Shown: positions 19,681-43,276 of the stretch, piece after piece
How the letters are laid out: the number at the start of each line of letters is the position of its first letter
Numbering within the stretch: the stretch's first letter is position 1
From: Lotus japonicus
Lineage: Eukaryota; Streptophyta; Magnoliopsida; Fabales; Fabaceae
DNA: 64,000 nt
Direction: 5' to 3'
Assembly (NCBI RefSeq): GCF_012489685.1
Contig: NC_080043.1
Span: 59,480,289-59,544,288, forward strand
Notes under the pieces: model-generated
Told to the model about the DNA's origin: nothing
Database searches by the model: none
The model's input: only the letters and a program-made list of their open reading frames with translations
Program-made: the position numbers and the translations under genes

Positions 19681-20386
19681 GACTCGAAGAGTTGTCGTGA
19701 GTGGTTGCACTCTTTTGTTTATGATTAATTGTATTTTGTCGCAGAATCGACATTTACCTTAGGGTATTCTTTTAGAGACTTTAAGTTAATCTAGAACACG
19801 TGGCGACGTGTCGGGTGAGGTCGGAGACGTTGTTTGGCTAATCACTTGCATTCATGCACTCATTTTGAGGTTAATACACGGCGTGATACCGGACCTCGGT
19901 GGATTCCAAAATGGTCATAAGACCCGGATTTCCATATTTAGGACACTACGGTGGTCCTCAGTAGCAGACGGAATGGCAGACCTACGGGTTCACTGCTGAT
20001 CTGACTACTTTTGTGTGGTGTAAGAGACACGCGAGCAGGAAGGTACCCACCGTGGCTGGTGTTAGGGCCGTCTCGTTGATGTCCATCCTTCTTCCGGAAT
20101 GCATTTTGTTACCCAGCATTGCATTTCATGCAACATACATGCTAACTTAGTTGCTGAGTGTGATTGGTAACTGTTTATCCTATTTTTGAGGCATGCTACT
20201 TGTTTTTATGGCTCTTTATATTTATTGTGATACATGCAACCCTAGGAAGCTATCCCAAAACTTATAAGCCTGAGAGGCTAGTATTTATTATCCTATAATT
20301 ATATCTGGTTTTATTAATTATATAATTCTTTGGAGTTGACCCTCGCGTCTGCTGTGTGTGTTTGGGCGGACTACGCCATTTGTCAG

Positions 20387-20869
20387 ATGAGTATGGGGGA
20401 TTGGTTTACCATGGTCAGCCCGTCAGGGGGGACCAGGTACGAGATGCTTGACCAAGACGACCCAGGTGCATGGGTGGTCGATCCCGAGGGCCACCGTGCG
20501 ACCTACACCGGTCGGATCATGGAGGACCGTGTCGATCGATTCGGACGCTTGACGGAGGGAGTGATGAGGAGGCACATAGTGAGCTTCAACCTGCCTCCAG
20601 GAGTACACTGTGGACCCGGCTTGGGAGTACCTCCACCGCCACCATCTCCTCCAGATGATGAGGACCCTTCTGAGGAGTTGCCAGTAGGTGGGGCTTCGAC
20701 GGAGTCTAGTCCGTCTACTGCTGCTGCTGTCGTTGCGGATCTCGTTCCGGGCCCCGAGCCCGAGAGTCCAGTGCGGGAGCGCATTAGGGTGGACAGAGAG
20801 GGCAGTGTTGAGTACGTCGACCTAGTCGTCCTGGATGCAGATTCGGATGACGACCGCGCTAGCATGTAG
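20387..20869 (+). CDS. Hypothetical LTR-borne ORF (5' LTR)
   Basis: An ATG at 20387 opens a 160-residue frame in the sense orientation of the element (the frame is open slightly further upstream but lacks an ATG). The product begins MSMGDWFTMVSPSG, has a proline run (PPPPPPSPP), and an acidic C-terminus ending DADSDDDRASM. The diverged solo LTR at 47629-51521 keeps recognisable pieces (MSIADWFTMV-like start at about 50881 and SDDD-ASM-like end at about 51017) but is broken in between. I know no family for it. It may be a chance ORF or a protein or leader peptide made from LTR transcripts. Confidence 0.3.
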   Translation: MSMGDWFTMVSPSGGTRYEMLDQDDPGAWVVDPEGHRATYTGRIMEDRVDRFGRLTEGVMRRHIVSFNLPPGVHCGPGLGVPPPPPSPPDDEDPSEELPVGGASTESSPSTAAAVVADLVPGPEPESPVRERIRVDREGSVEYVDLVVLDADSDDDRASM

Positions 20870-21321
20870 GATCGAGTGCTAGTGTGGGCTCCTCGGGTAG
20901 GGATAGTGTAGGAGTTGTGTCGATGCTCTGACCGTCATGCTTCCGTTTTGGGGACAGGGTAGTTTCCCTACCGGTAGCTTTTGTGTGGTTTCCTATGGAG
21001 ATCACAGAGAGCTGGTTGGATTTAGGGGGTCTTTTCTTAGGCCGCTGGGCCAACTTGCTCTCAGTTTTTGTAGGTTAGTGTTGCGGACACAGTATCTTCA
21101 TCTTGGACTGTACATATTGCCTTCGGGCGTTACTCTTTTCTGTCACCCGACACGAGGCATGTATATATAGTTGTATAGTAGTTCCTTTTATCTTCTGTTG
21201 GGGAGTTTTATTGCTTTTTGTCTTTAGTTATATTGTCGAAAAAAAATAATTCACGTTTTTCCGCTTAAAGTATTTTCTTTTGGTTACTAAAGTGACGCCA
21301 CCGAAATCGGGGTGTTACATT

Positions 21322-21335
21322 TGTGGTATCAGAGC
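21322..21335 (+). other. Primer-binding site, tRNA-iMet type
   Basis: TGGTATCAGAGC lies a few bases inside the 5' LTR end, the usual plant initiator-methionine tRNA PBS. Confidence 0.9.
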
Positions 21336-21532
21336 TTAGTCGAGTCTTTCGGGAGTCTTTGGGGAATAGGTCTTCTGTGCTAGGTTGTGTGACTCTGCAA
21401 AGAGTAAAAATTGATTGTCTGCCAAGCGATTTTTCGCTTAGAATTGTTTGAAGTTATTGCTTAATCATATTGTATAGTTATTTTGGATGCTATCTTATGA
21501 TGAGCACTAACTGTTTGTTAATTTAGCAGAAC

Positions 21533-24500
21533 ATGGTGAACGCTAACCAACTAGCTGAGATGATGGCCACTATGGCCCAAGCTGTGACTGCACAGGCAAA
21601 CGATAATGCTATGAGGCGTGCTGCTGAGGAGGCACGTGATCAGCACCAACGCCAGAGGGAAGTGACAATGGATCAGAACAGAGGCCTGAATGATTTTAGG
21701 AGACAGGATCCACCTAAGTTCTCGGGGGGTACGGACCCGGACAAAGCGGATCTCTGGATCCAGGAGATTGAAAAGATCTTCGGTGTATTGCAGACTGCTG
21801 AGGGGGCCAAGGTGGGAATGGCAACCTTTCTACTGTTGGGTGATGCTGAGTACTGGTGGAGAGGCGCCAGAGGAATGATGGAAGCAAACAACCTGGAAGT
21901 GAACTGGACTTCGTTTCGTGCTGCTTTTCTGGAAAAGTATTTTCCAGATAGTGCGCGGGACGAGCGTGAGTCGCAATTCCTGACACTTCGTCAGGGTAGC
22001 ATGTCCATCCCGGAATATGCTGCCAAGCTGGAATCGTTGGCCAAGCACTTTCGATTCTTCCGCAATGGGGTCGATGAACCCTACATGTGCAAGTGCTTTG
22101 TGAATGGGCTGAGGCCCGATATTGAAGACTCGGTGAAACCGTTGGGGATCACTCGTTTTCAGACTTTGGTTGAGAAAGCCACTGAGGTGGAGATAATGAA
22201 GAACAGGAGACTGAACCGTGTTGGGACAGGAGGGCCGATGAGGTCGGGCTCTCAAAATTTTCAAGGCAGAGGGAGATTTCAGAGTAGGAAGCCGTATCAA
22301 CGTCCTGCAGGTAGAGGAATTGCTTCAGGATCTTATAGGCCCATGGTGGGTACTGCTGGAGGTTCTGGAGGTCAGACTGTGAACAGGGAGATGACCTGTT
22401 ACAGATGTGGGCAGCCTGGGCACTATGCCAATGCTTGTACTGACATGAGGCCCAAATGCTTTAACTGTAACAAGTTGGGGCATACTGCTGCTCAATGCAG
22501 AGCACCTAAGACAGAACCAGCTGTAAACACTGCTCGTGGGAAGCGTCCTGCTGCCAAGGCAAGAGTCTACACCATGGATGGTGAAGAAGCTGAAGATGTT
22601 GATGGTCTGATCAGGGGAGATTGCGAGATTGACGGTAATCTCCTAACTGTACTTTTTGATTCCGGAGCAACGCACTCTTTTATCTCTAGGGAATGTGCTA
22701 CTAGATTAAAACTTCCCGTTACTGCTTTGAGTTTCGATCTTATAGTTACCACACCTGCCAAAACTCTGCTTGCCAATACTGCATGCATGTATTGCCCAGT
22801 AACCTATAGGGATAAAGTTTACCATGCTAACCTAGTGTGCCTAACTCTCAAGAACCTAGATGTTATCCTAGGGATGGACTGGTTGTCTCACTACCATTGT
22901 CTTCTGGACTGTAGCCGAAAGAGAGTGGTATTTCCTGACTCGGACCTTTCCGAGTATCTATCCGCCAATCATATTAATGTCTCTCTGAATGAAGGATCTC
23001 AAGAGTATTCAGTTTTGTTGAGCTTGGAGAGTAAAGGAAATTCGGAAGTGAGTAATATTCCAGTTGTGAGGGACTTCGCGGATGTTTTTCCTGTCGATGT
23101 ACCTGGTTTGCCGCCTGTACGCGACATTGAGTTTGCTATTGACATCGTACCGGGAACAGGACCGATTTCGATTGCACCATATCGGATGGCACCTGCGGAA
23201 TTGGTGGAGTTGAAGTCTCAACTTGAGGATCTTCTGTCGAAAGGATTCATCCGACCAAGCGTTTCACCTTGGGGAGCACCCGTCTTATTGGTGAAGAAGA
23301 AGGATGGGAAATCTAGACTTTGTGTCGACTATCGACAACTGAACAAAGTAACCGTCAAGAATAGGTATCCGCTACCCAGAATTGATGATTTGATGGATCA
23401 ACTACGAGGAGCTGCGATATTCTCAAAGATAGACCTGAAGTCGGGTTACCATCAAATTAGAGTAAAGACTGAGGATATCCAGAAGACGGCATTCCGGACT
23501 CGTTATGGACACTATGAGTATCTAGTGATGCCATTTGGGGTGACAAACGCACCTGCTATCTTCATGGATTACATGAACAGGACATTCCATCCGTTCTTGG
23601 ATCGATTCATCGTGGTGTTTATCGACGACATTCTGATCTACTCAAAGAACGTTGAAGATCATGAAGGGCACTTGCGTCAGGTTTTACAAGTGTTGAGAGA
23701 GACAAAGTTGTACGCCAACCCTTCTAAGTGTGAATTTTGGCTCGAAGAGGTAAAATTCTTGGGCCATGTGATTTCTAAAGAAGGTATAGCTGTGGATCCA
23801 GCAAAGGTAGAGACGGTGTTGTCATGGGAACGGCCAAAGACCGTGACTGAGATCAGGAGTTTTGTCGGTTTGGCGGGATACTATCGTCGCTTCATTGAGA
23901 ATTTCGCCAAGATCGTTGGACCCTTGACTCAACTCACGAGAAAGGATCAACCTTTTGCATGGACCGAAGCGTGCGAAACTAGTTTTCAGACAATGAAGGA
24001 ACGTTTGACGACGTCACCTGTACTCGTCTTACCGCAACCAGAGGAACCGTATGAAGTGTACTGTGATGCTTCGCATCAAGGTTTGGGATGTGTGCTGATG
24101 CAGCATCGGAAAGTGGTGGCTTATGCTTCACGACAACTGAAGACTCATGAGAAGAACTATCCGACTCATGACTTAGAACTTGCTGCCATTGTGTTTTCGT
24201 TGAAGATCTGGAGACATCACTTATATGGATGCAATTTCACCATATTTAGCGATCACAAGAGCTTGAAGTACTTGTTTGACCAGAAGGAGTTGAACATGAG
24301 ACAACGACGTTGGATGGAGTTTCTCAAGGATTACGATTTTACCTTACAATACCATCCTGGAAAAGCTAATGTTGTTGCTGATGCATTGAGCAGGAAAATG
24401 CATATCTCGTCAATGATGGTGAAGGAGCTACAACTGCTGGAACAATTCCGAGATTTGAGTTTGGACGTAAGATTATCCGAGGGAGAACTGAGGTTCGGGA

Positions 24501-25951
24501 TGATCAGGATTACCAATGGATTGATGGAAGAAATCCGAGACCAACAGTTACAAGATGAATTTTTACTCGGAAAAAGGAATTTGGTAATTCAGGGTAAGGA
24601 CCCGGAATTCAAGGTAGGAAGTGACAATATCCTACGGTGTAAGGGTAGAGTTTGCGTACCCAACAACCCTGACCTAAGGAGGTTGATACTGGACGAAGGT
24701 CACAAAAGTAAGCTGAGCATTCACCCTGGAATGAAAAAGATGCACCAGGACTTGAAGGTGAATTTTTGGTGGCCAGGAATGAAAAGACAAGTGGCAGAAT
24801 ATGTAGCTGCATGTTTGACCTGTCAAAAGGCGAAGGTGGAACATCAGAAATCTGCGGGTATGCTACAAAGCTTGGATGTACCTCAATGGAAATGGGATAG
24901 CATATCGATGGATTTTGTCGTGGCATTACCAAGAACTCAAAGAGGATATGACTCGATTTGGGTAATCGTGGATCGACTGACTAAGTCGGCTCATTTCATA
25001 CCGGTGAGAACTACGTACAACGTGGATAAGCTATCAGAGATTTATATAGCTGAGATTGTGCGACTTCATGGAGTGCCAACAAGTATCGTTTCCGATAGAG
25101 ACCCGAAGTTTACTTCACATCTGTGGGGAGCTCTTCATGAGGCTTTGGGAACGAGGCTGAGATTAAGCTCTGCTTATCATCCACAGACTGATGGGCAAAC
25201 TGAGAGAACTATCCAATCATTGGAGGATTTGCTACGAGCTTGCGTGTTAGACAATAAGGGCAGTTGGGACACCCTATTGCCACTGATTGAATTCACATAT
25301 AACAACAGTTTTCATACGACCATAGGTATGGCACCGTATGAGGCATTGTATGGCCGCAAGTGTAGAACACCTTTATGTTGGTATCAAGATGGAGAGAATT
25401 TGTTAGTAGGACCGGAACTTCTGCAACAGACAACTGAGAAGATTAAACAGATCAGGGAAAAGATGAAGGCTTCTCAGAGTAGACAGAAGAGCTATGCAGA
25501 TCAAAGGCGCAGAACCCTGGAATTTGAAGAAGGGGATCATGTGTTTTTGCGAGTTACCCAGACTACAGGAGTTGGTCGAGCAATCAAGTCAAGAAAGCTG
25601 ACGCCAAAGTTCATTGGACCTTATCAGATTACTCGTCGTGTAGGACCGGTAGCTTATCAGATCGCACTACCGCCTTTTCTATCAAACGTTCACGATGTAT
25701 TCCATGTGTCACAACTGCGGAAGTATATTGCTGATCCGATGCACGTCATCGAGCTGGATGACATTGAGTTGAAGGATAACTTGTCTTTCGAGACACCGCC
25801 AATCAGCATTGGTGACACAAGGGTAAAGCAGTTGAGGGGTAAAGAGATCGAGTTAGTGAAGGTTATTTGGAACAAGGACACCGGTGATGCAACGTGGGAG
25901 CTGAAGGAAAAGATCAAGGAACAGTATCCAGAACTTTTTACTGACCCTTAA
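21533..25951 (+). CDS. Tekay-type gag-pol polyprotein, intact
   Basis: A single uninterrupted ORF encodes 1,472 residues, typical of chromoviruses. In order: gag (about 40-230); two CCHC zinc knuckles ([14 protein letters not shown] from about 289, [14 protein letters not shown] from about 309); aspartic protease with DSGATHSF near 376; reverse transcriptase with [10 protein letters not shown] near 612 and the catalytic IDD at 697-699; RNase H with YCDAS (Asp845) and DALSRK; integrase with HPGMKKMH and CxxC (from His1064) and the DDE triad Asp1127, Asp1188, Glu1224 (D-X35-E); and a C-terminal chromodomain-like tail with LVKVIWN and ATWELKE. No stop or frameshift is seen and all catalytic residues are present. 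It makes the virus-like particle and the enzymes for copying and integration. Confidence 0.97.
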
Positions 25952-25974
25952 GTTTCGAGGTCGAAACTTTCTTT

Positions 25975-25988
25975 TTGGAGGGTAGTAA
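25975..25988 (+). other. Polypurine tract region
   Basis: The short GGAGGGTAGTAA stretch lies directly before the 3' LTR, where plus-strand priming is expected. It is a weak tract, but the position is right. Confidence 0.55.
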
Positions 25989-28900
25989 TGTAAGGCCCAA
26001 GTTTTAACGCTTTGGATAAGTGAATAAAATAAATAAGTTATTTGATTAAGATAAATTTGGGAAGGAAAGAGGTTCAGGAAAAGTCCAAGAATGTATCGAA
26101 AAACCGAAAGAGTTATAGCACGACTAACATACGCTTAATCCTAGGTCGAAGGTATTAGTGAATAGTTAATTTACGCTTTAGGACACGATGGAAACTAATT
26201 CCAAAAATCCTCAGAGAAATGTTAGAACTTCTCTTTTCCGTCCTTAAACAACCATTTCGATGCGAAATCCTGGAATGTACGAACGTCAAATTCCAATTCT
26301 CGGAAGTTTGCCGAAACGGAATCCCTGATAGTTCGGAAAACCTAAGATCGACAGACGATGAAGACTTTTTCTATCCGGAAACTCAAACGAAGATTCCACC
26401 CGCGTTCTCCTACATCTCTCATCATTCCTAATCTTTCTTCAGAAGGAAGTTTTCTCATCCGACGATCACTGCAAAAAGTAGTTTTTCGGGATAAACCGAC
26501 TTACACCGACTTATGCCGATTTTGGATCTTTTGGTTTAATTCCAAGAATTCTATTTTGAGTTCTGGAATTCTGTCGCCAGAACCTATCTTAGAATGCGCA
26601 GAGGAACGCGCAGGAAAAATCGGAATCGCAAAAAAATCATTTTTCCGTTTTTTTCCAAAACCTATAAATAGTTGAAAAATTAGATTTTTTTCACAAAACC
26701 CATTTTCCCCACCCCCCAAAGCCGCGAGTTTCTAGAGAGAGAGAGAGATCCGGATCTTCGTCGATTCTTGCCCGTTTGCTTCACCGTTCGTCACTAATCG
26801 AAGACCTCGAGGTAGGTAATCTATACTCTCCTTCGAATCGTCGTTTCTGTCCATTTCTCCTGCGACTTTCTGAGTTCAAAATTTTGAGGTTTTTGAAAAA
26901 CTGTTCAAATCAGTTGATTTCAGCGTCTAAACTTCTTCCCTGCATGCTCCTGAGCGTGTTCTGCGGATTAGATTTTGTCAAATGTCGACGAAATGCCGCC
27001 GGGATCAATTTCTACCCTAAATACCCATTTTTCGCCAAAGTCGCAACCTTTACGCTCTAATCTATCGACTTGGCTTAGTGCTAGTAGGATTTGTCGTCAT
27101 AAACGTCGTTGTGGACGTCCCCATCCAATTTGTTTTTCAAAAATCCAATTTTGAAATTCTGAGCTAAAAATAATGACCAAACTACCCCTATATCAGTTTT
27201 CGATCCGAAAATTTTTCCGAGCCTAGAACCGTCTTAGTTACGGCTTATGTTAACCTAGGAACCAAGTTTGATCGAAGAAAAATCGACCCTCCCAATTAAG
27301 GAAAGTGGCCGAGAGCTATATCAAGGGGGGAGGAGAATCCGATTTTTCGAAAACTTGTCTTAACGCGTTAGATTGTCGTACCACGGAGGTAGTAGTGTAC
27401 TGTGTAACCCTAGGACTCTTTGATTGCTGAGTTTCTGACTCTTGGTGTTGATTTCTGTGATTTTTGCTTAAGGTTCGTTTGAGGAGATTCCAAGAAACCA
27501 AGGAGAAGAGCTTGAAGAACATTTGGAGGAGGAAGCTGGAAGACCCACCGGTGAGGGCTACTCTCTGAATTACTAGATAATGCTTTAGGTGTCGATGAAA
27601 TTCGACTTGATTTATGTGTTATGCACCTAATTGCTAAATGTCTGAAATGATTTCTGAGGCTTCGGCCGAACTTGTTGAGTACTTGATGCCATGATATTGT
27701 GTGCTAAATGATTCACATGCTATGTGCTACATGGTTAACTTAGGATGTGTTGGAATATGCTGTTTATGTCTTTTGGTTGAGCTGTTTCAATGATGCTATT
27801 CCACTTGTACCTGAGATTCTGAAAAGTGAGGATTACGGGCAGGTCATGCCGAATTTTTATGAGATTTTGAGAGAGTTTTAAAAGGACGAACGGAGTTCGG
27901 ACCTTGTCATGCTCCAATGGATCGAGACCTTCTCAGGGAATTACTTGGGTTTATGGGAACTTTGAACTCATAGGGAATACGATAAGACTAAAAAGAGCTA
28001 TTTTTATAAAGAAATTCATAAGATATTAAACAACCTCTAAACCTTTAAATAAAGATAACAATCTCGGATGCAAGCTTTGGATTGAAGTTTAGTTTTGGAA
28101 AATGAGAAGTGTCGTCGGATCCAAGTGTTGGGAAGATTTCGAGTTTTGGGTATGTTGATACTCATTCGCTCTGGGAGCAGTTTGTTTAGCCATCCAAGGG
28201 ATGAGCCGAGAAGCTTCACGGAGGTGTGAGACCTTGTGAATGCGTGATACTCCACTGAGGCGTGAGACCTTGTGGAAAGCATGGATCTTCACTGAGGCGT
28301 GAGACCTCGTGAACAGCATGATACTTCATTGAAGCGTGAGACTTCGTGCAAGTGTGTAAATTCACTGAGGCGTGAGACCTTGTGAAAGCATAAAACTTCA
28401 CTGAAGCGTGAGACTTTGTGAATGTGTGAGACTCCACAGAAGCGTGAGACTTCGTGAGAGCATTGATGACTCGAAGAGTTGTCGTGAGTGGTTGCACTCT
28501 TTTGTTTATGATTAATTGTATTTTGTCGCAGAATCGACATTTACCTTAGGGTATTCTTTTAGAGACTTTAAGTTAATCTAGAACACGTGGCGACGTGTCG
28601 GGTGAGGTCGGAGACGTTGTTTGGCTAATCACTTGCATTCATGCACTCATTTTGAGGTTAATACACGGCGTGATACCGGACCTCGGTGGATTCCAAAATG
28701 GTCATAAGACCCGGATTTCCATATTTAGGACACTACGGTGGTCCTCAGTAGCAGACGGAATGGCAGACCTACGGGTTCACTGCTGATCTGACTACTTTTG
28801 TGTGGTGTAAGAGACACGCGAGCAGGAAGGTACCCACCGTGGCTGGTGTTAGGGCCGTCTCGTTGATGTCCATCCTTCTTCCGGAATGCATTTTGTTACC

Positions 28901-30106
28901 CAGCATTGCATTTCATGCAACATACATGCTAACTTAGTTGCTGAGTGTGATTGGTAACTGTTTATCCTATTTTTGAGGCATGCTACTTGTTTTTATGGCT
29001 CTTTATATTTATTGTGATACATGCAACCCTAGGAAGCTATCCCAAAACTTATAAGCCTGAGAGGCTAGTATTTATTATCCTATAATTATATCTGGTTTTA
29101 TTAATTATATAATTCTTTGGAGTTGACCCTCGCGTCTGCTGTGTGTGTTTGGGCGGACTACGCCATTTGTCAGATGAGTATGGGGGATTGGTTTACCATG
29201 GTCAGCCCGTCAGGGGGGACCAGGTACGAGATGCTTGACCAAGACGACCCAGGTGCATGGGTGGTCGATCCCGAGGGCCACCGTGCGACCTACACCGGTC
29301 GGATCATGGAGGACCGTGTCGATCGATTCGGACGCTTGACGGAGGGAGTGATGAGGAGGCACATAGTGAGCTTCAACCTGCCTCCAGGAGTACACTGTGG
29401 ACCCGGCTTGGGAGTACCTCCACCGCCACCATCTCCTCCAGATGATGAGGACCCTTCTGAGGAGTTGCCAGTAGGTGGGGCTTCGACGGAGTCTAGTCCG
29501 TCTACTGCTGCTGCTGTCGTTGCGGATCTCGTTCCGGGCCCCGAGCCCGAGAGTCCAGTGCGGGAGCGCATTAGGGTGGACAGAGAGGGCAGTGTTGAGT
29601 ACGTCGACCTAGTCGTCCTGGATGCAGATTCGGATGACGACCGCGCTAGCATGTAGGATCGAGTGCTAGTGTGGGCTCCTCGGGTAGGGATAGTGTAGGA
29701 GTTGTGTCGATGCTCTGACCGTCATGCTTCCGTTTTGGGGACAGGGTAGTTTCCCTACCGGTAGCTTTTGTGTGGTTTCCTATGGAGATCACAGAGAGCT
29801 GGTTGGATTTAGGGGGTCTTTTCTTAGGCCGCTGGGCCAACTTGCTCTCAGTTTTTGTAGGTTAGTGTTGCGGACACAGTATCTTCATCTTGGACTGTAC
29901 ATATTGCCTTCGGGCGTTACTCTTTTCTGTCACCCGACACGAGGCATGTATATATAGTTGTATAGTAGTTCCTTTTATCTTCTGTTGGGGAGTTTTATTG
30001 CTTTTTGTCTTTAGTTATATTGTCGAAAAAAAATAATTCACGTTTTTCCGCTTAAAGTATTTTCTTTTGGTTACTAAAGTGACGCCACCGAAATCGGGGT
30101 GTTACA
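25989..30106 (+). repeat. 3' LTR of Tekay element
   Basis: Same length and, as far as I can read, the same sequence as the 5' LTR (offset 8,787 bp). It carries the TATA box at 26663-26670, minisatellite at 28208-28467 and the 160-residue ORF at 29174-29656. It ends GGGGTGTTACA followed by the duplicated target GTGCG. Confidence 0.97.
29174..29656 (+). CDS. Hypothetical LTR-borne ORF (3' LTR copy)
   Basis: The duplicate, in the 3' LTR, of the ORF at 20387-20869. If any product is made, the 3' copy would be read from transcripts that pass through the LTR. Confidence 0.28.
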   Translation: MSMGDWFTMVSPSGGTRYEMLDQDDPGAWVVDPEGHRATYTGRIMEDRVDRFGRLTEGVMRRHIVSFNLPPGVHCGPGLGVPPPPPSPPDDEDPSEELPVGGASTESSPSTAAAVVADLVPGPEPESPVRERIRVDREGSVEYVDLVVLDADSDDDRASM

Positions 30107-33368: not shown

Positions 33369-34178
33369 TCACACCACATTTGGAGTATATAACCAAACTT
33401 TTCTTTCATTAAGCTCCTGGGTTGGCCTTGCATTGTTCTCAAATCCATGATGAACAACTTCTTTTAAGGCCTTTAACTGCTCCCTTGAGACTGTCCTAAC
33501 CTTTTTCACTATTGTCCAAATAACACCTTCAGAGCATGGGGGTGTTGTCAGAGAACCAACATATCTATAATACTTTCTGCTTCCAAACTTGATGAGTCCT
33601 GGGTTAAGTATTCCCAAATCTATATCCTTGTTGTCTCCACTTGATTTTATGTTGTCGAGAAGCTTTGAAAGCAAGGGATCCGGCTGGCTAATTGTATACC
33701 ATATTCCAATAACAACTCTCTCTCCTTTAGAGTTTTGATGGACTGCATGCATTTCCATGTCAAACTTTGATCCACTCAACGTGTGCTCTGAAGGTGTATG
33801 CCAATGACTTTGCACGAAGTTGTAGTAAGTTCCATTTATGTTAAGCTTCCCTGCATCTCCATCCCACTGGAGCATGATGTCATGACCCCTATTCTTTAAG
33901 GTAGCAGGAGCTACTTTGTAATCTTTTTGAAGTTTTCCAAGTTGAGGAAACCCCTCTGCATTTTTAATATCAATTGGAGATTGAGATTTTCCATTTCTAC
34001 AAATTTCCCACTCTGGTTTTAGACTCCCCCAATTCTCTGGTCCATTTCTAGCTCCTTTAGTGTAGATGTATTCTTCATCTTTAGATTCAGAAGCTATTGT
34101 GATGAGGAACAAAGAGGAACATAGAATCGTCACTAGGAAGACCAATGAGAACAAGGTGTGGTTGGTGGGGAGGGTCAT
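33369..34178 (-). CDS. Alpha-carbonic anhydrase, secreted
   Basis: A 269-residue alpha-class carbonic anhydrase (CO2 hydration to bicarbonate), full length for plant members. The ATG at 34178 starts a hydrophobic signal peptide (about residues 1-29), so it should enter the secretory pathway. Zinc ligands are His125 and His127 (SHWHTPSEH) and His144 (MEMHAVH). The substrate-pocket motif LTTPPCSEG is present, and Cys60 with the Cys of PPCSE could form the usual disulfide. An AT-rich TATA-like stretch lies about 60 bp upstream. The gene is one uninterrupted ORF, whereas I expect several introns in most plant alpha-CA genes, so a retrocopy origin is possible. It could equally be a nectarin-like or storage-type member; activity is inferred from the residues. 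Confidence 0.9.
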   Translation of the reverse strand: MTLPTNHTLFSLVFLVTILCSSLFLITIASESKDEEYIYTKGARNGPENWGSLKPEWEICRNGKSQSPIDIKNAEGFPQLGKLQKDYKVAPATLKNRGHDIMLQWDGDAGKLNINGTYYNFVQSHWHTPSEHTLSGSKFDMEMHAVHQNSKGERVVIGIWYTISQPDPLLSKLLDNIKSSGDNKDIDLGILNPGLIKFGSRKYYRYVGSLTTPPCSEGVIWTIVKKVRTVSREQLKALKEVVHHGFENNARPTQELNERKVWLYTPNVV

Positions 34179-35415
34179 GGTGGTGTGACTATTGATCTTG
34201 ATGTGGTGAATTTACTGTCTATATTAAATAATAATAAATTCAGAACGTGTGTAGGAGATAAAGTAAAATTTTATATTAAGAAGAATTAAAATTATTTTAA
34301 CTTGGATTATTAATAGAAAATTATATGGAAGATAATGATAAAAAAATTTGACTTTTATTTTTTTCATTCCATCGGAAGATTAAAAGAAACTTTATTGAAT
34401 GAAAGAAACTACATGAGAACTACACTCTCATGCAATAAGGAAGCACAAAACAGAGCCAAACACCAAACAATAAAACCCCACCCCCTTGGAAGGACAACCT
34501 TAGAGCTTATGCTTCATCAAAACCTTAAAAGGAAAAACTCATTTGGGAAAAAAGCATAGTAAGGATAAAATTATGAAATGATAAATATAAAATCTAAATA
34601 TTTATACATAATAATTTATTGAATATTTAAACTATAGAATAATAATTATAACCACTATTTATTGTTTCGAAGATATTAAAAGTAAAATATTTTGATTCAG
34701 AAATAATTTTTTATATTTATCATTCTTTTATATATATAAAAATTAATATGCACGGGAGCTAATATTAAGACAGCTTATTTGAAGTGATTTCTTAGTATAA
34801 GCATTTATGAAAATGGGTAATTGCATTCATCCCCTTGAGATTTGTCTCAATGACACACACCCTCTAGTTTGTGAAAAACATTCACATCTCCTCCTCCATT
34901 CTTCATTAGTGCTCTATTCTTCATTGGTCACCCAGTTACCTATTCTCCTTCCCTTCCATTTAGTTTTGCTAATATTGCACAAAACACACTGGCCACTCAG
35001 AAAGTCTCAATAAATCAACTATGACCCCAATCAAACATGGTGTTAAACTTTATAATAACATTATTGGTTACTGAAACTTGAGAAAGATAATAATTTACTA
35101 CTAATATGATTATATGAACTTGCATTATTATGTGGTGATATGTTATTACATCGTTAAAAAGTTCAAGATATGATTATAGTGTTTAAATTTAGTTTAATGA
35201 TGTAATAACAAACACTACAAATGAATACAAACAATTAATGACATGTATAGATTTGACCGACACGCGCATTAGCATAAAAACCGCCACTAATGCATATGTT
35301 ATTCGTATATCGAGTAAAAACCATATGTCTACCTACCCGAACTCTTTTGCATTGTGTACTCAATACAAACTTAAAAAGTGAACAATCAAACACACTCCGA
35401 GGAGGAGGCTAATAT
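34179..35415. other. Intergenic region between the two host genes
   Basis: AT-rich sequence with no convincing gene. It holds the upstream region of the carbonic anhydrase gene (from 34179) and the 3' flank of the large multidomain gene (below 35416). A degraded repeat-like piece lies at about 34815-34985. Short ORFs here are not recognisable. Confidence 0.5.
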
Positions 35416-38400
35416 TTATCTTGACCTAACTATTTCTCCTTTCATGGCAAGAGACAAGGCACCAAGATTAGCCTCACTTTCCACTTCCACACCAGGCATG
35501 ACCACAGCTCTACTCCCTACAAACCCATCTTCACCAATTTTGATCTCTCCAAACTTCACCATTCCTTCACCTTCATAAATGTGTCCAAGCAACAAAGCTT
35601 CTCTTCCCACACACCCCCCACTCTCAATCTTCACCATTTCAGGGTTCAACAAAGCTCCCATGCTATCCACATACCCTGCACGATCCATGTCAATGTCTGC
35701 ACCCATCAGCTTCATCCATAGTACAAACCAAAACGACCCACTTGTCATGTCCATGAAAAAGTCTCCAATTACGGTTCTAATGGCTTGCCATGTGCTATCC
35801 ATGAGGACCCTTTTGCTCCAAATGGGTACTGTTTCACCAGCTTTCTTCTTCCCCACGAAAACCCATTTGGCTGCAACACATGCTAGTGCAGCCATGAAAC
35901 CTGAGAGAATCCAGAACAGGGGAAGCAGCCAATGCAGTGGGAGATTCTTCACATTGTTAAGGTAAAGAACCAAGTTCAGAGGAGCATAAATTGCTAAACC
36001 CACCACCATGTGCGGTAAAGCTGTTTGTAGAAATGGCTGAGTGAAAAGCCCTGAGAAAATTTGGGACCTGGTTCTTGTCAAGGTTACTTTTTTTAGCAAC
36101 GGTTCCTTTTCAGGCAATGCTGCTGCTGATGATGCTGCTGCTGCTGCCATTGGACAACAGGACAGGTCTACCTTCACGTTGGATTGCTGTACGAGGTTTC
36201 TCCAGGATTCTGGGAGTGGCTGTCTGTTACGCACGTGCTGGCAAATCTCGTAGATCAATGAACGACCATGATCAATTGAAGCACTCTGTGTGATGGAGTT
36301 AGCAGGGACGACATCTAACTCATGGCTTCTGAGATAAGGATTGAACTCAAGTTTCTCTGACTCTTCTCTGGAAAGATTTTCAGTGATGTTAATCTCTCCA
36401 ACATCAATGTAAGGGAACTCTTTTTCATCCCATGGTTTGGTGCAGTCAAGTGCAGCATCACGTGTGGATTCATCATCTGGCACTGGTTGAAGCTGCACCT
36501 GGAAAACATAGCGAACTCCACCGGGGGAATTCACTCGCTTTTGAAAATCATCAGCAAGGAATAGCAAAGGACGCGTGTCCTTTTCATCCCTTGGAATTGC
36601 ACCTGTCTCTGGTGGAAGAATCCCAGTTGGCTCAACCTTACCTGTAGGAAAAAGTTCGGTTAACACACCAATTACACATACACCAGCGACATATAGGAAT
36701 AGAGGAGAAATAAATAAAAGATATGATGGACGATAAAAATAGTGTGTGAGTGAATAAAAATCCTTTACCTGTATCCTCAGTGATACTTGTGTCATGAGGC
36801 CTTAACTTGAATTTGACATACATTTCCTGTCCATTCTGGAACCGCATGAGCCTGCAAATGTTTGAGTGGTAATGCAATTCAGCATATGAGTCACCATTCC
36901 GAAGGGAAGTCCACACGGCTTCACGAACATGTGGGGCTAACTTGACCATCTCTTCCCTCGCAGCAAGTCCACACACAAGCCAAGTTGCAAAATCACCAAG
37001 GGTGCGTGCATAGAATGCCTTGCCTGTTTTCAGTGTCAAATCAATGATAGGAGGGTGAGAACTGGGTTCATCAGAAAGTATCCTCAAAGCTGCGCCACGT
37101 GCATCAATCCTGGCATCATCATCAGCACTTAAGCTATTGCTGTGACGTACCATGACAGGGTAGCTTTTTCCAGGGTGAAAAATCTTGTGCTGTGGAACAC
37201 CTTCAAGTTTGTCATATATTTTCAAGTGCCCCTTTCCACTTACACCAATGCGATGGAAGTATCTTGCTTTAGCATTCATTGTTGTGACAGCCAAATTTGC
37301 AGCCAAATTTCCAACCACTTTCTTGTATCCCATGTCCATCTCCTCGATCCGTTCATCCAAATTACTTCCCGAGTTCCTTGTAGAGATTCTGGTTTGAGAT
37401 CCAATGTACACGCTACCCTCATGAAGTATGGAGTTCATTGGAGCAACTGAAAGTGCACCAAGCATGACATTCTTTTCTACAAGAGAACCAGGGAGGATTA
37501 GGCTTTGACTCCCAGCAACTGAATTCTCCTGAACCTCTATCTTCCCACAAGCATATCCATTGGAATAATGGAAACCAGTGATTATGCGGCTAAAATCACC
37601 AAGATGGACACCATGACCAATTGACATAAGCTCTGGGTTTGAAACTGGATTGATGGCTCTAATGGAACAATGCTTGCCAATTTTTGCACCCAAAAGGCGT
37701 AGATATATGCAGAAGGCTTCTGTTCCTGAGAGAAGCTTTGCAAATCTAAGGTGGCAGGAAAGGGTTAATTGATTTCGAAGCCAGGTTTTAAAGTGGGTTT
37801 GCTTTTGACCAAGTTTGAGCAAACGAGTCAAGGCACAGGTGAGAGAGATGAGTATGAGACCATGAAGCAAGTATGCGCAGGTAAATAAAATGGTGAAGGC
37901 AATGGGATTTGATGTTATATTAGAAAACATGGTTGCATAGGCAATTATGGTAAATGGGATCCAGTGGAAAGTCCCACATATGCAAACAAATGAAAATTGT
38001 TGGAATGATGCAGGTTTCTGGAAGAATCTTATATATAGGAAGTAAGCAATAGCTGCAGCAAGGGAGCTGAGAAAGCCAACAAGGTAGATCCCCAAAAAGT
38101 GGTACATGGCATCAGACTGAGTTTTGCTGGTAGTAACAGGAAGCCCTGTATTCTGCAATAAAATGAGAAGAAATTAGTTATAGTTCAAGCTTCCATTACT
38201 ATCAGTCATTAATTTAACATCATGAGCTATTACATGGAATGAAGTTTTGAGCTATAAAGGAGGACAAATTCTCTTTTTCATAAGTAGTAGCAGTAATAAA
38301 ACATAAGCTAGAAATTAAGTAAATTACATTGGTAAAAAGAATTCAGTTATTTGAAAAACCTGCATGCATGAGAATCTAAATTATTTGGCAGAGCTAGTCT

Positions 38401-41400
38401 TACTCTTAACTGACCTCTTTAACATTATTAAGCTTGGCAGGTTTGAGCACATGTTGGCCTCCTTCAACCTTTTGCAGGGGTTGTACCTCAGCTCCTTCTC
38501 TAATAACACTTCCTTTTTGAATAACAGCATAAGGTCCAATTGAAGAATTTTTGCCGATCCTAATTGGAAGGAAACTTAGAAGTCCATTCTTCACCTCATG
38601 GCTTTGAACCAAAGCTCCTTCGGCAATGACAACTTCATCTCCAATTGAAACCAGAGACGGGTCGGTGATGTCAACTGTGTCAAGCAAAACTGATGATCCA
38701 ATTCTTGCTCCAAGCATCTCAAACCAGTATTTCAGAAACACTGTTCCTTTGAGGTGTGTTGCCAGAACTTTTGAGGAGATTTCCTGGGTTTTATAAAGCG
38801 CCCACCACTTGACAAAATCCATTGAATATATGGATATTTCAGGGGTAAGGGCATAGTTTGGCCTCAAGAAAGTATTACCAAAAAATGAAATGCAAACGCA
38901 AGTAGAAGCAATGCAAAGGATCCAAGAAAAGGGTGCCAAAGTCAGTGAAATCAGATAATTTAACCAGGGGAACCCATATACTGGTTGACTAACATTTGTA
39001 ATGAAGCTTACAAAAGCAGTGATGGACAGATAAGCAGGTGAGACCAGCATGATGGAAATGTAAATGAGTGCTAGGAGTTGAAGAAAATGGATACCCCATT
39101 GGCGAGACTTGGTCACATCAACAACAAATTCAGTAGAATCAGTTTCAGCTTCTTCAACATGGGATGGATTGCTCATAAGTTGAGGTTGAGACTTCAATAG
39201 AAGATTCTCTGAGAAGTTTGCTAGTTCTTGAATGCTGGATGCGGTGAAAACATCTATAGCAGCAACTGGCACTCCTAGGAAATCTGAGAGTTTTTGAGTT
39301 GCTTTGACCACACCAATTGAATCCATTCCATAGGTTGACATGTTGTCCGTGACTGAGATGTTGCTGATAGAGATTCCAGCCTGTTCAGAAATAAGCCTTT
39401 TCAAGAACTCCACAATTTCCTTGTTACCGATACACGGACTAGGTAGAAGTGTTGTACTTCTCACTAGCTGAGCCCTTGGTGTTCTTCCTTCTGTACATGT
39501 TCCTGTAGTATATGACCTTACCAGTGTTTTTTTTGACAAAGTAGGCTGTGATACCAAGTTTAGTGTTCCATCTGCGAACTGTTTGAGACATTCAAATCTT
39601 TTGATTTTGCCTGAGGTAGTTTTGCTGATTGTTCTAGGCTTGATCAGCTTGACAGAAGCAATACTGACTCCATGTTCTTCTACCACACGAGTCTGAATAT
39701 GCTCAATCACATCTTTGTTAACCGGTTTACCATCCCTCAGTTCTGCAATCACAACCAAACCAACCTGGTCAGAGCCATCTGGCAAAGGAACCCCCTTTGC
39801 TGATAAGATTTCTTCAGAGACTCCAATTACAGCACAGCATCCAGGACGAATAAATTCAGATGAACTCTCCACCGTCTTTTCAACATCTGAGGAGTAGATG
39901 TTTCTTCCAGCAACGATGATAAGATCCTTGATCCTTCCAGTGATGAATAGCTTTCCATCTATGATTCTTCCCAAGTCTCCAGTTCTTGTGTAGATACGTC
40001 CGGGGTGGTTCTTGAGCTCATTCTTGAATGTTTTCTGACTCAGTTCTTCCTTTCCCCAGTATCCTATTCCTGCACTTGGACTACTGATCCAAATTTCTCC
40101 TTCCTTTCCATCTTCCTGAAGCTCTTCACCGAGCTCTGGATCAGCTATTCTGATGTCAATATCTGCGTCACCCGGGTGAATATATCCACAACAAACTCTT
40201 CCCTGCCAATCAACGAGAATAGGATTGCCTTCTCCAAATGCACAACTGACAAACACACAATTTTCTGCTAAGCCATATCCAGGAGCCATCACTTTTTCAG
40301 AAAACCCAAAAGGTCTGGTTAGATCAAGAAACCTTTTCAGGGTCTTCTGTCTCACTGGTTCAGCAGCAACCATGATAAAAACCATGGAAGAAAGGTCAAA
40401 ACTCTGAAGCTTATCCTTTTCAGACTCTAACCTTCTAACCACCAACTCAAAAGCAAAGTTAGGGCCAGCACTATGAGTTGCTTGATATTTGCTGATGATT
40501 TCAAGCCACAAGAGTGGTTTCTTGATAAATGTCATTGGTGAAAACAAGAATGCAGTTCCACCACTAACAAGAGCTGTGAAAAGTCCTCCAATCAGCCCCA
40601 TGTCATGATACTGAGGAAGCCAGCTCACTAGCACTGTCCTTGAGGTGCTCTTGTATCTACTTCTCATCAGCTTCACATTGTGAATAAGCCCTCCATGGGT
40701 AATCATGACTCCTTTAGCATCACCGGTTGAGCCTGAGGTAAATTGTAAGAAACTTATGTCAGCAGGCTTCGATTCACATTGATCATCTAGACCTTCCATA
40801 TCAGAACATTTTGAGCTATTGACCCAAGAATCAGTGTGCAGCCATGGAAGATTTGGCCATCTAGCTGAGGATTTTCCATTTTTCCCAGTCAGTGACATAA
40901 AAGTTTTCACTAAACCCACGCGAACTGCTGAGTGGTAAGCTACTGTTGATAAAATTGCCACTATGCCACATGACTTGGCAATATTCTCAATTTTCTGAAG
41001 TGCTTGTCCACCTCTTTGCATGGGATCTGGGGGAATAACTGGGACTGGTAGAACTTTAGCTCTTAGGCATCCAAAGAAAGCATCAATGAAATCCAGACCA
41101 GGAACATAGACAAGGAGGACCCTGTCACCAGGCTTGATCATTGGCTTTTGGCTTGATAAGAGCTTATGTGCAATGCAAGAAGCATTTAAGTGTTGTTCTC
41201 TATATGTCCTCTTGCCTGTTACTGTCCCTTCTTCATTTATCCATGAATAAAGAGTTCTATTTTCAGTGACTGGATGAGTTCCCCAATGTTTTAAATAGCT
41301 ATTCAAAGTAGGCAAATTGGGAAATTTCACTCCAGGCAATTCATGAAGTTCTGGAGGCTCCTTTTTCTGGAACTCGGTTTGCAAAGGGAACAAACTCTGC

Positions 41401-43276
41401 ATAAGACATGCTTCTAGTGAGTACAGGTCTCTTTGGAAAACATGACTAGCCAAAGTATGTAAAAGCCAATTTATTCAAATCATTTTTTTTTCAAACAATG
41501 ACTGTTTATAATATACAAATGTAAAAGTACCTTGGTATAAGGAAACACTGGCAAATCACTGCTATTTGCAAAGTTCTTGCAGACCATAGCCATGGCATAA
41601 GATGAATTTCTCTCTGTGAGCTCAAATGCCATAAGCCCACCGACATAATAAGTATTCCTTGAACCTTGAAGCTCTGATTCCAACTTTCCATAGAATCCAT
41701 TTTTCATGTCTGCATTTAAACTTCAAAATTTAGAATAATTTTTACTTGAAAGAAGAAAATTGAATTTAAGAAGTACTATAATACCTTGGCTGCTAACGTG
41801 AGGAAAATACTTAAAGCGACGTTGAAGAATGAAACTCTCAACTTCTCCCCCAATGGCTTCTATTGCCTTGATTGCAAGCTCAGTGACTGTTGGACCCTTA
41901 ATATCAACAGAGTTGCCATAGGACCAGAACAGGAATACATCAGTGTCAGCATAAAACTTTTGCATGGCAACTGGATTTCCAATTGTGCTGGGATCTTCCA
42001 TATATTCACTGAAATAATAAAATCCAACTGGCATGTGTTCCAGCCCTTTGATCTTGAAAACAGTGGTGTAGTAGTCATTTGTCTCTACTTTGCTAAACAA
42101 TTCCTTCTCAAGGTCACTTGCATCCATTACTTCTGCTTCAGATTCTGCCACAAGTCGTACCTCATTAGTATCTTCCTAGAGCAATCAACAATAACAATTT
42201 GTAATTATGATGCAGTTAAAGTCTACATACCTATACAAGTTGAAGGCACTGATCTGTAAGTTCTTCCATATTTTAGTGGAAAGTTACCAGAGATTATGAT
42301 CTTATCAAACTCCATAGACTCAACTTCATTTGAGCTCTTGACATTAACAGTGACACTGTCGGAACTCCTTCTGATGGCCGACACTTCAGCGTTACAGTGA
42401 AGTTTCACAGGAAGTGATTCAACAATCCTCTGCCAAAGACTTGTATATCCACCTTTGAATCGTCGAATTTTCCCTGCCATGGATGTTCTGGTAAATTCAT
42501 GAATGTAGGCATAAGGCATATCTTGAGTAAACCCATATCCTGAAGCTGTGTAACCATAAGCCACAGATTTAGGAATGGATTTGAGTCCATGATGTTGAAG
42601 ATACACTGGAGTTAAGTCTGAAGCAATTTCACTGACAGCATGGACCCCAAAATGACCAGAATTCTTCACCTTTTCCTGTCAATAGCACAAATTAAATTAA
42701 TAACAACATTCAACTTTCAAAGGTCAGGCCATAGGAACTAAGGAGTTTTCTTTATGACTAACTTGGATGTTCAAGGTGAGTGACATAACAGACACATAAT
42801 CATCAGCAACTTTAATATCTTGATATTGTCCTGAGGAACAGTCAATAACAGCAAGCTTGTGTGAGTCCATTTCTTCTAGTGCTGACCCTGTCTCTTTTGC
42901 CAAGTGAAAGATAACTGGAGCACTGCTTGCTGCCAGAACTTGTCCACCCAGATCATAAACTTTTCCTGTATAAGAATATTTTTGTTAAAACTAACTCAGT
43001 TGAATCAGATAGTACTATTAACATTTAGTACCCGTTTGGATACTTCGTATCTACACATACTCATAATATTATACCTTCAAAGTCAACCGATTCACACATG
43101 CCACCAACTGTATGGTGTTTCTCCAAGACGGTGATATTATTATAACCAAGCCTGGCCAGTGCATAAGCAGCTGATAAGCCACTTGGACCAGCACCCACTA
43201 TTCCAATTCTGGTGCTTACTGGCAAGGAAGGATGTAGCTTGGAGAATTGGTCCTCCATTGATCTTTCTGGATCCAT
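35416..43276 (-). CDS. Amine oxidase-FAAL-ACP-membrane-catalase-like multidomain enzyme
   Basis: Coding exons: 43276-43075, 42965-42763, 42675-42231, 42171-41785, 41709-41531, 41396-38415, 38152-36769, 36641-35416. All introns are GT-AG, and the join totals 7,008 nt with no internal stop (2,335 residues). In-frame stops precede the chosen ATG. Domains: FAD amine oxidase (1-470; GAGPSG at 28-33, VGGMC); FAAL-type adenylation (about 480-1090; FTSGSTGDAKG 691-701, QYHDMGLIGG, GYGLAEN, YTRTGDLG, catalytic Lys1069); acyl carrier (GMDS, Ser1165); then three TM plus hexapeptide beta-helix modules (TM about 1239-1316, helix about 1393-1453; TM 1484-1576, helix 1624-1714; TM 2134-2188, helix to the C-terminus). 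Between modules two and three lies a catalase-like heme domain (about 1755-2070; His1766, RHSN 1802-1805, R2054-x3-Y2058). The tail resembles the bacterial NRPS terminal region (TIGR02353, Pls-like). No condensation or thioesterase domain. The substrate is unknown. Confidence 0.88.

Follow-up and report, generated by a model that had tools for sequence, protein, structure and literature searches.

Plants activate fatty acids via coenzyme A (CoA). The hydroperoxides made by their lipoxygenases are converted mainly by P450s of the CYP74 type, according to the accessible part of PMC5617202. In bacteria, fatty acyl-AMP ligases (FAALs) stand before a carrier in starter units such as 7r7e, 3kxw and FadD32, and the Pls/PosA synthetases (epsilon-poly-lysine, delta-poly-ornithine) combine an N-terminal amino-acid adenylation domain, a carrier and three membrane/beta-helix modules. 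According to the portion of PMC10522769 available to us, the Pls tail consists of three pairs of helices, was modelled with three left-handed beta-helices and takes part in polymerisation, the adenylation and carrier domains by themselves giving no polymer. Plant FAALs located between 'HemY' and catalase domains, with no function assigned, were reported by Patil et al. 2021 (PMC8460268), whose accessible text adds that most plant FAALs resemble bacterial FAALs in domain organisation. Here we analyse such a gene in a 64,000-nucleotide stretch of Lotus japonicus DNA (contig NC_080043.1, positions 59,480,289 to 59,544,288; hereafter the window, whose first letter is position 1). It encodes, in this order, a FAD domain like that of the fatty-acid isomerase PAI, a FAAL, an acyl carrier protein (ACP), Pls/PosA-like modules 1 and 2, a heme domain and module 3. 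We are moderately inclined to read the product, from its domains and conserved residues, as an acyl assembly enzyme that is conserved in plants, anchored to a membrane, made as one chain and centred on a fatty acid. The architecture is already in print; PAI, the relation to a coral enzyme and the Pls/PosA-like tail are not named in the accessible part of Patil et al. 2021, and what is new within that compass is the kinship of the two redox domains with fatty-acid enzymes, together with the Pls-like tail. The features are the following.

35416..43276, minus strand: whole gene, eight exons and seven GT-AG introns, product of 2,326 amino acids
43276-43075, 42965-42763, 42675-42231 and 42144-41785, minus strand: exons 1-4 (splice assembly)
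41709-41531, 41396-38415, 38152-36769 and 36641-35416, minus strand: exons 5-8 (splice assembly)
41534..43234, minus strand: PAI-like FAD domain, residues 15-462, exons 1-5
39531..41330, minus strand: FAAL, residues ~486-1085, with Lys1060 at 39606-39608
39213..39407, minus strand: carrier (ACP/PP-binding, PF00550 41.3 bits), residues 1127-1191, with attachment Ser1156 at 39318-39320
38436..39098, minus strand: membrane/left-handed beta-helix module 1, residues ~1230-1450 (hydropathy, Hexapep, Pls/PosA matches)
37319..38101, minus strand: membrane/beta-helix module 2, residues ~1475-1735 (hydropathy, profile similarity to both other modules)
36211..37291, minus strand: catalase-related heme domain, residues 1745-2062, across the exon 7/8 joint
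37253-37255 and 36250-36252, minus strand: heme ligands, distal His1757 and proximal Tyr2049 respectively (mapped via the coral enzyme alignment)
35419..36099, minus strand: membrane/beta-helix module 3, residues 2100-2326 (hydropathy, internal homology to module 2)

The giant chain was confirmed as one 2,326-residue protein from an eight-exon gene: splicing yields a single frame on the minus strand, which opens with an ATG at 43276 and closes with a TAA at 35416-35418, and its residues 1-1,615 are identical to the Lotus japonicus database model LOC130744429 (P0068, 1,617 amino acids). That model stops after residue 1,617, within exon 7 (window 36769-38152), where the frame of the window remains open; since it ends there, the exon 7/8 join is supported by the full-length relatives described below. 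An extension of the exon 6 open reading frame (ORF) and an alternative acceptor for exon 4 were rejected, the chosen joins agreeing with the database model at both points. The first-pass annotation, made from the letters of the window, had already proposed one spliced frame encoding a single chain, which these results bear out, with a length of 2,335 residues that must be corrected by nine; its ligase Lys1069 and carrier Ser1165 are accordingly Lys1060 and Ser1156.

A whole-length protein search returned 375 relatives at E <= 0.001 from 7,983 scored candidates. Among the best 120 of these, 105 align with the query from end to end (100%) and are 65-85% identical to it, and chance can be ruled out because full-length relatives are conserved; the chain is therefore not a product of faulty annotation, nor did it arrive recently. 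It is not confined to this genome either: 116 of the same 120 carry flowering-plant names (four are without organism), and tomato, apple, cacao and common bean are among the crops listed. With the N-terminal domain as sole query, a mixed gene model (P0153, eukprot Gb_19159) was reached, which by its name prefix we take to come from Ginkgo biloba; it contains the PAI end, 58% identical across 44% of that query, plus the start of the ligase linker. The residue counts given below refer to an alignment of 105 rows, made up of Lotus and 104 of the best 120 relatives, 16 having been removed by length. Separately, 15 database models of 375-517 amino acids (P0176-P0190) begin at residues 1632-1722 and reach 2083-2150, and 14 of them then have a second block from 2207-2287 to ~2326, most of module 3 being absent; they may represent a recurrent short transcript, a paralogue or a prediction artefact. 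Several are named 'linolenate 9R-lipoxygenase-like' or 'y4iK-like', the former name already hinting at the fatty-acid relations described below.

A domain search on the joined protein gave, among others, Pfam matches above the families' own cut-offs for the FAD part (Amino_oxidase 68.6 bits, NAD_binding_8 55.9, DAO 28.9) and for the rest of the chain (AMP-binding 189.3 bits, AMP-dom_DIP2-like 33.6, PP-binding 41.3, Hexapep 43.5, Catalase 31.8), together with a match to NCBIfam TIGR02353 (Pls/PosA) below its cut-off. When exon 6 was compared with the PDB, FAAL-type entries ranked best, led by 7r7e at 2.3e-83; among the 18 sequences at E <= 1e-20, the top 14, FAALs by title or presumably so, precede McyG (15th) and, in the last places, two amino-acid adenylation entries. 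The titles of the FAAL matches vary (7r7e 'Polyketide synthase', 3kxw 'Saframycin Mx1 synthetase B', some 'Acyl-CoA synthase'), and the closest relatives of the ligase in this search are FAALs, not acyl-CoA ligases or amino-acid adenylation domains. Lys1060 of the ligase motif, presumably catalytic, and Ser1156 of the carrier are each kept in 105/105 plants. The CoA pocket of EcFAAL is blocked by W224, M231 and F279, P226 also being named in the accessible part of PMC8460268, and W722, P724, M729 and F777 reproduce the EcFAAL spacings in 105/105 plants. The plant chain shares with the bacterial FAAL-ACP starters the FAAL core, the CoA-excluding residues and the carrier next to it, but is mostly only ~30-37% identical to them. 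Both the FAAL and the ACP of the first-pass annotation are upheld by this evidence.

The N-terminal domain had been called an amine oxidase; the Amino_oxidase family match stands, but the closest relative in sequence and in fold is PAI, not an amine oxidase (PDB comparison; the fold is that of relative P0121). Ranking next in fold are, among others, the oxidases CpaO and LkcE (entry title of LkcE: amine oxidase/cyclase); the fold alignments took in 16 of 51 matches (A6) and 24 of 55 matches (A7). The FAD motif is conserved in the plant chain, which is only 22-23% identical to PAI and in which the domain is fused to others. Searched alone, the N-terminal domain gave 55 matches, including further unnamed or bacterial relatives at 27-32%.

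The heme domain was compared with the PDB through a profile built from four plants over the heme domain and module 3 (two of six candidate sequences were unused; for a different alignment, A2, one of another four sequences, P0119, which has a deletion, was left out). Coral allene oxide synthase 1u5u was matched at 7.6e-31 over profile positions 3-314, nearly the whole domain, and the best true catalase at 1.9e-6, in pieces; the former label of a catalase-like domain is thus right as to the fold, its nearest relative being the coral enzyme and not catalase. The active-site residues of the coral enzyme (Plexaura homomalla, 1u5u/3dy5), other than Arg349, are listed in the accessible part of PMC5617202. 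Among them Arg64 is kept in 104/105 plants, and Arg102, Arg360, Tyr353 and His67 each in 105/105; in plant numbering, His1757, Tyr2049, Arg1793, Arg2045 and Arg2056 are present in 105/105 and Arg1754 in 104/105, so that the proximal Tyr, the distal His and the heme Arg residues are shared. Arg349, a further site of the coral enzyme, is likewise kept in at least 104/105. The Lys107 position is Ser in 103/105 plants and Thr in 2/105; a proposal for the coral enzyme gives Lys60 and Lys107 the role of binding the carboxylate of the substrate (PMC5617202, accessible part), and loss of Lys107 would weakly suggest a tethered chain. The coral enzyme is fused to a lipoxygenase, whereas the plant domain is fused to FAAL, ACP and tail. 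The structure model of the heme domain is poor (pLDDT 42) and its top match, again 1u5u at TM 0.34, was given no weight. On these alignments we class the domain as a putative catalase-related hemoprotein, which has the coral enzyme as its closest relative yet differs from it.

The tail predicted in the first-pass annotation, Pls-like and of three modules, is supported. TIGR02353 matched in three stretches; the modules are mutually homologous in profile comparison, the profile of module 2 matching modules 1 and 3 at probabilities of 96.8 and 97.1%; and each module profile matched all three modules of one Rhizobium Pls/PosA protein, whose gene adjoins a phosphopantetheinyl transferase gene. Hydropathy peaks number two, three and two per module, which departs from a plain set of three helix pairs (module 1 at residues 1240 and 1290; module 2 at 1487, 1519 and 1552; module 3 at 2135 and 2166), each set preceding a beta-helix-type region; four additional peaks, three in the FAAL and one at 1684, were excluded as membrane helices. 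A tblastn search of plasmids with module 1 matched 63 records, 8 of the 15 listed being annotated as Pls/PosA. The adenylating domain, the carrier and the three modules are common to Pls/PosA and the plant chain, but in the latter a FAAL replaces the amino-acid adenylation domain, and modules 2 and 3 are separated by a heme domain.

Taken together, the domain order and the conserved residues support the proposed outline of activating, tethering, modifying and releasing an acid at the membrane, which we would specify as follows. The FAAL would adenylate a fatty acid, probably unsaturated, and load it without CoA onto the phosphopantetheine arm of Ser1156; the FAD domain would shift or create a double bond, and the heme domain would act on the same chain in an oxidised (peroxide) state, before or after loading. 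At the membrane face, the three-module tail may hand the acyl group on to an acceptor with an amine or hydroxyl function, much as amide bonds are made by its homologue in poly-amino-acid synthetases. This would give an amide or ester of a modified acyl chain, a lipid resembling the oxylipins. In favour of a fatty-acid substrate, PAI and coral allene oxide synthase, the closest relatives of the two redox domains among solved structures, both work on fatty acids.

Several observations weigh against this model. The stretch after YGLAE, in which we presume the FAAL-specific insertion to lie, is ~14 residues shorter in plants than in bacterial FAALs: the gap from YG.AE to GE.W is 52-55 residues in 102/105 plants (64 in two, pattern absent in one) and 65-72 residues in 65 of 80 bacterial FAAL loci, 15 being without the pattern. 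The NCBIfam FAAL models among those listed match below their own cut-offs (e.g. 300.7 against 775), as does TIGR02353 (191.2 bits against 423.1). The position of Phe193 of PAI, which we take to be an active-site residue, is probably Met201 in 104/105 plants, aligned via a weak stretch (12.4 bits). In the heme domain, Thr66 of the coral enzyme is replaced by Phe in 105/105 plants and the distal Asn137 by Lys in 104/105 (Gln in 1/105). The Thr-His pair is said, in the title of Mashhadi 2016, to be a hallmark of the reaction with fatty-acid hydroperoxides, a mark that sets the plant domain apart from ordinary members of the group; changes of the Asn reportedly affect rate, not chemistry (Gao 2008, by title). 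The Lys60 position, contrary to the tethering argument, is Lys in 88/105, Asn in 15 (including Lotus) and Gln in two. Finally, no lipoxygenase domain was found in the chain by the Pfam scan (22 families).

Other explanations were considered. The FAD domain could be a true oxidase making hydrogen peroxide from a carrier-bound amino or acyl group, with the heme domain as a built-in peroxide scavenger or peroxidase: the Amino_oxidase match, the oxidases CpaO and LkcE among the next-best folds, and a heme domain lacking both the Thr and the Asn of the coral enzyme are consistent with this. We hold it to be rather doubtful, both domains being clearly nearer to PAI and to the coral enzyme than to any PDB-listed amine oxidase or catalase; moreover, the distal Asn is common to catalase and the coral enzyme (PMC5617202, accessible part), and its loss does not favour a standard catalase either. 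The Phe and Lys on the distal side might also mean that the heme domain is retired or structural and that the working unit is FAAL-ACP plus tail only; this is unlikely, since a retired domain would have no need of the six ligand and Arg residues kept in 104 or all 105 plants. The same can be said still more firmly of the gene acting as separate proteins, with 3' transcripts yielding a stand-alone heme protein. The short models P0176-P0190, 14 of 15 with the second block, and the Lotus database model ending at 1,617 amino acids point that way; against them stand the relatives that form one chain over the whole query and the frame that is open through exon 7.

A bacterial origin had been thought plausible in the first-pass annotation, which regarded a nonribosomal peptide synthetase (NRPS)-like architecture as uncommon in plants. 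Every part has bacterial relatives separately. A FAAL-ACP scan of genome contigs gave 331 pattern matches and 177 relatives, the best 80 being 30-37% identical; at profile E <= 1e-3 none of these 80 loci had PAI, heme or tail modules, and a carrier was found in 4/80, tblastn entering the carrier region in more. When the heme domain and module 3 were used instead, there were 57 pattern matches but no relatives; each contig scan used two peptide patterns only and several contigs are short, so neither is proof of absence. In plasmids, FAAL-ACP-module 1 matched 259 records, none with one place covering 80%; PAI-like matches occurred in two records (E <= 1e-8) and heme-domain-like matches in five (E <= 1e-3), all Sinorhizobium. 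Viral contigs gave no match with the exon 7 ORF as sole query, and a bacterial protein with the same domain order was not found in these limited contig and plasmid searches. A bacterial origin is thus not demonstrated, and recent gene transfer or contamination is very improbable given the seven GT-AG introns, the flowering-plant relatives with the putative Ginkgo piece, and the lack among the best 80 loci of any FAAL above 37% identity or beside a PAI, heme or tail module at threshold.

Side observations concern the heme relative in Sinorhizobium fredii pNGR234a (L083, 4886-10939; 131 bits), which has a catalase gene on one side and, on the other, genes coding for a patatin-like phospholipase and a di-heme cytochrome c peroxidase; to see an oxylipin cluster in this neighbourhood is a guess. 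In the window itself, an ORF at 33369-34211, on the same strand and ~1.2 kb downstream of the gene, looks by eye like an alpha-type carbonic anhydrase. A 1,474-residue ORF (21527-25951) reads by eye like a Ty3-type gag-pol and is bracketed by two 183-residue ORFs of identical translation (20318-20869 and 29105-29656), the whole (20318-29656) being recognised by eye as a long terminal repeat (LTR)-retrotransposon-like unit.

Returning to the acyl assembly enzyme, a wider reading is tentatively offered: a second, P450-free oxylipin route in flowering plants, in which one CoA-independent polypeptide would isomerise an unsaturated fatty acid, tether it to a carrier of its own, carry out a heme reaction and release the product. 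Just as tentatively, the heme reaction would take place in a catalase-related pocket of a new class (Phe-His/Lys), and an NRPS-like membrane tail would release an acyl amide or ester. Literature searches, from which subscription papers were mostly outside coverage, yielded, among the papers listed, no functional study of this plant gene and no paper on isomerase or allene-oxide-synthase relations or a Pls-like tail in its protein. A conserved enzyme that unites a CoA-excluding ligase, a dedicated carrier and a heme domain other than a P450 would open a branch of plant lipid chemistry still to be explored, and the fatty-acid kinship of both redox domains gives concrete substrates to try for a gene of 'unknown function'.

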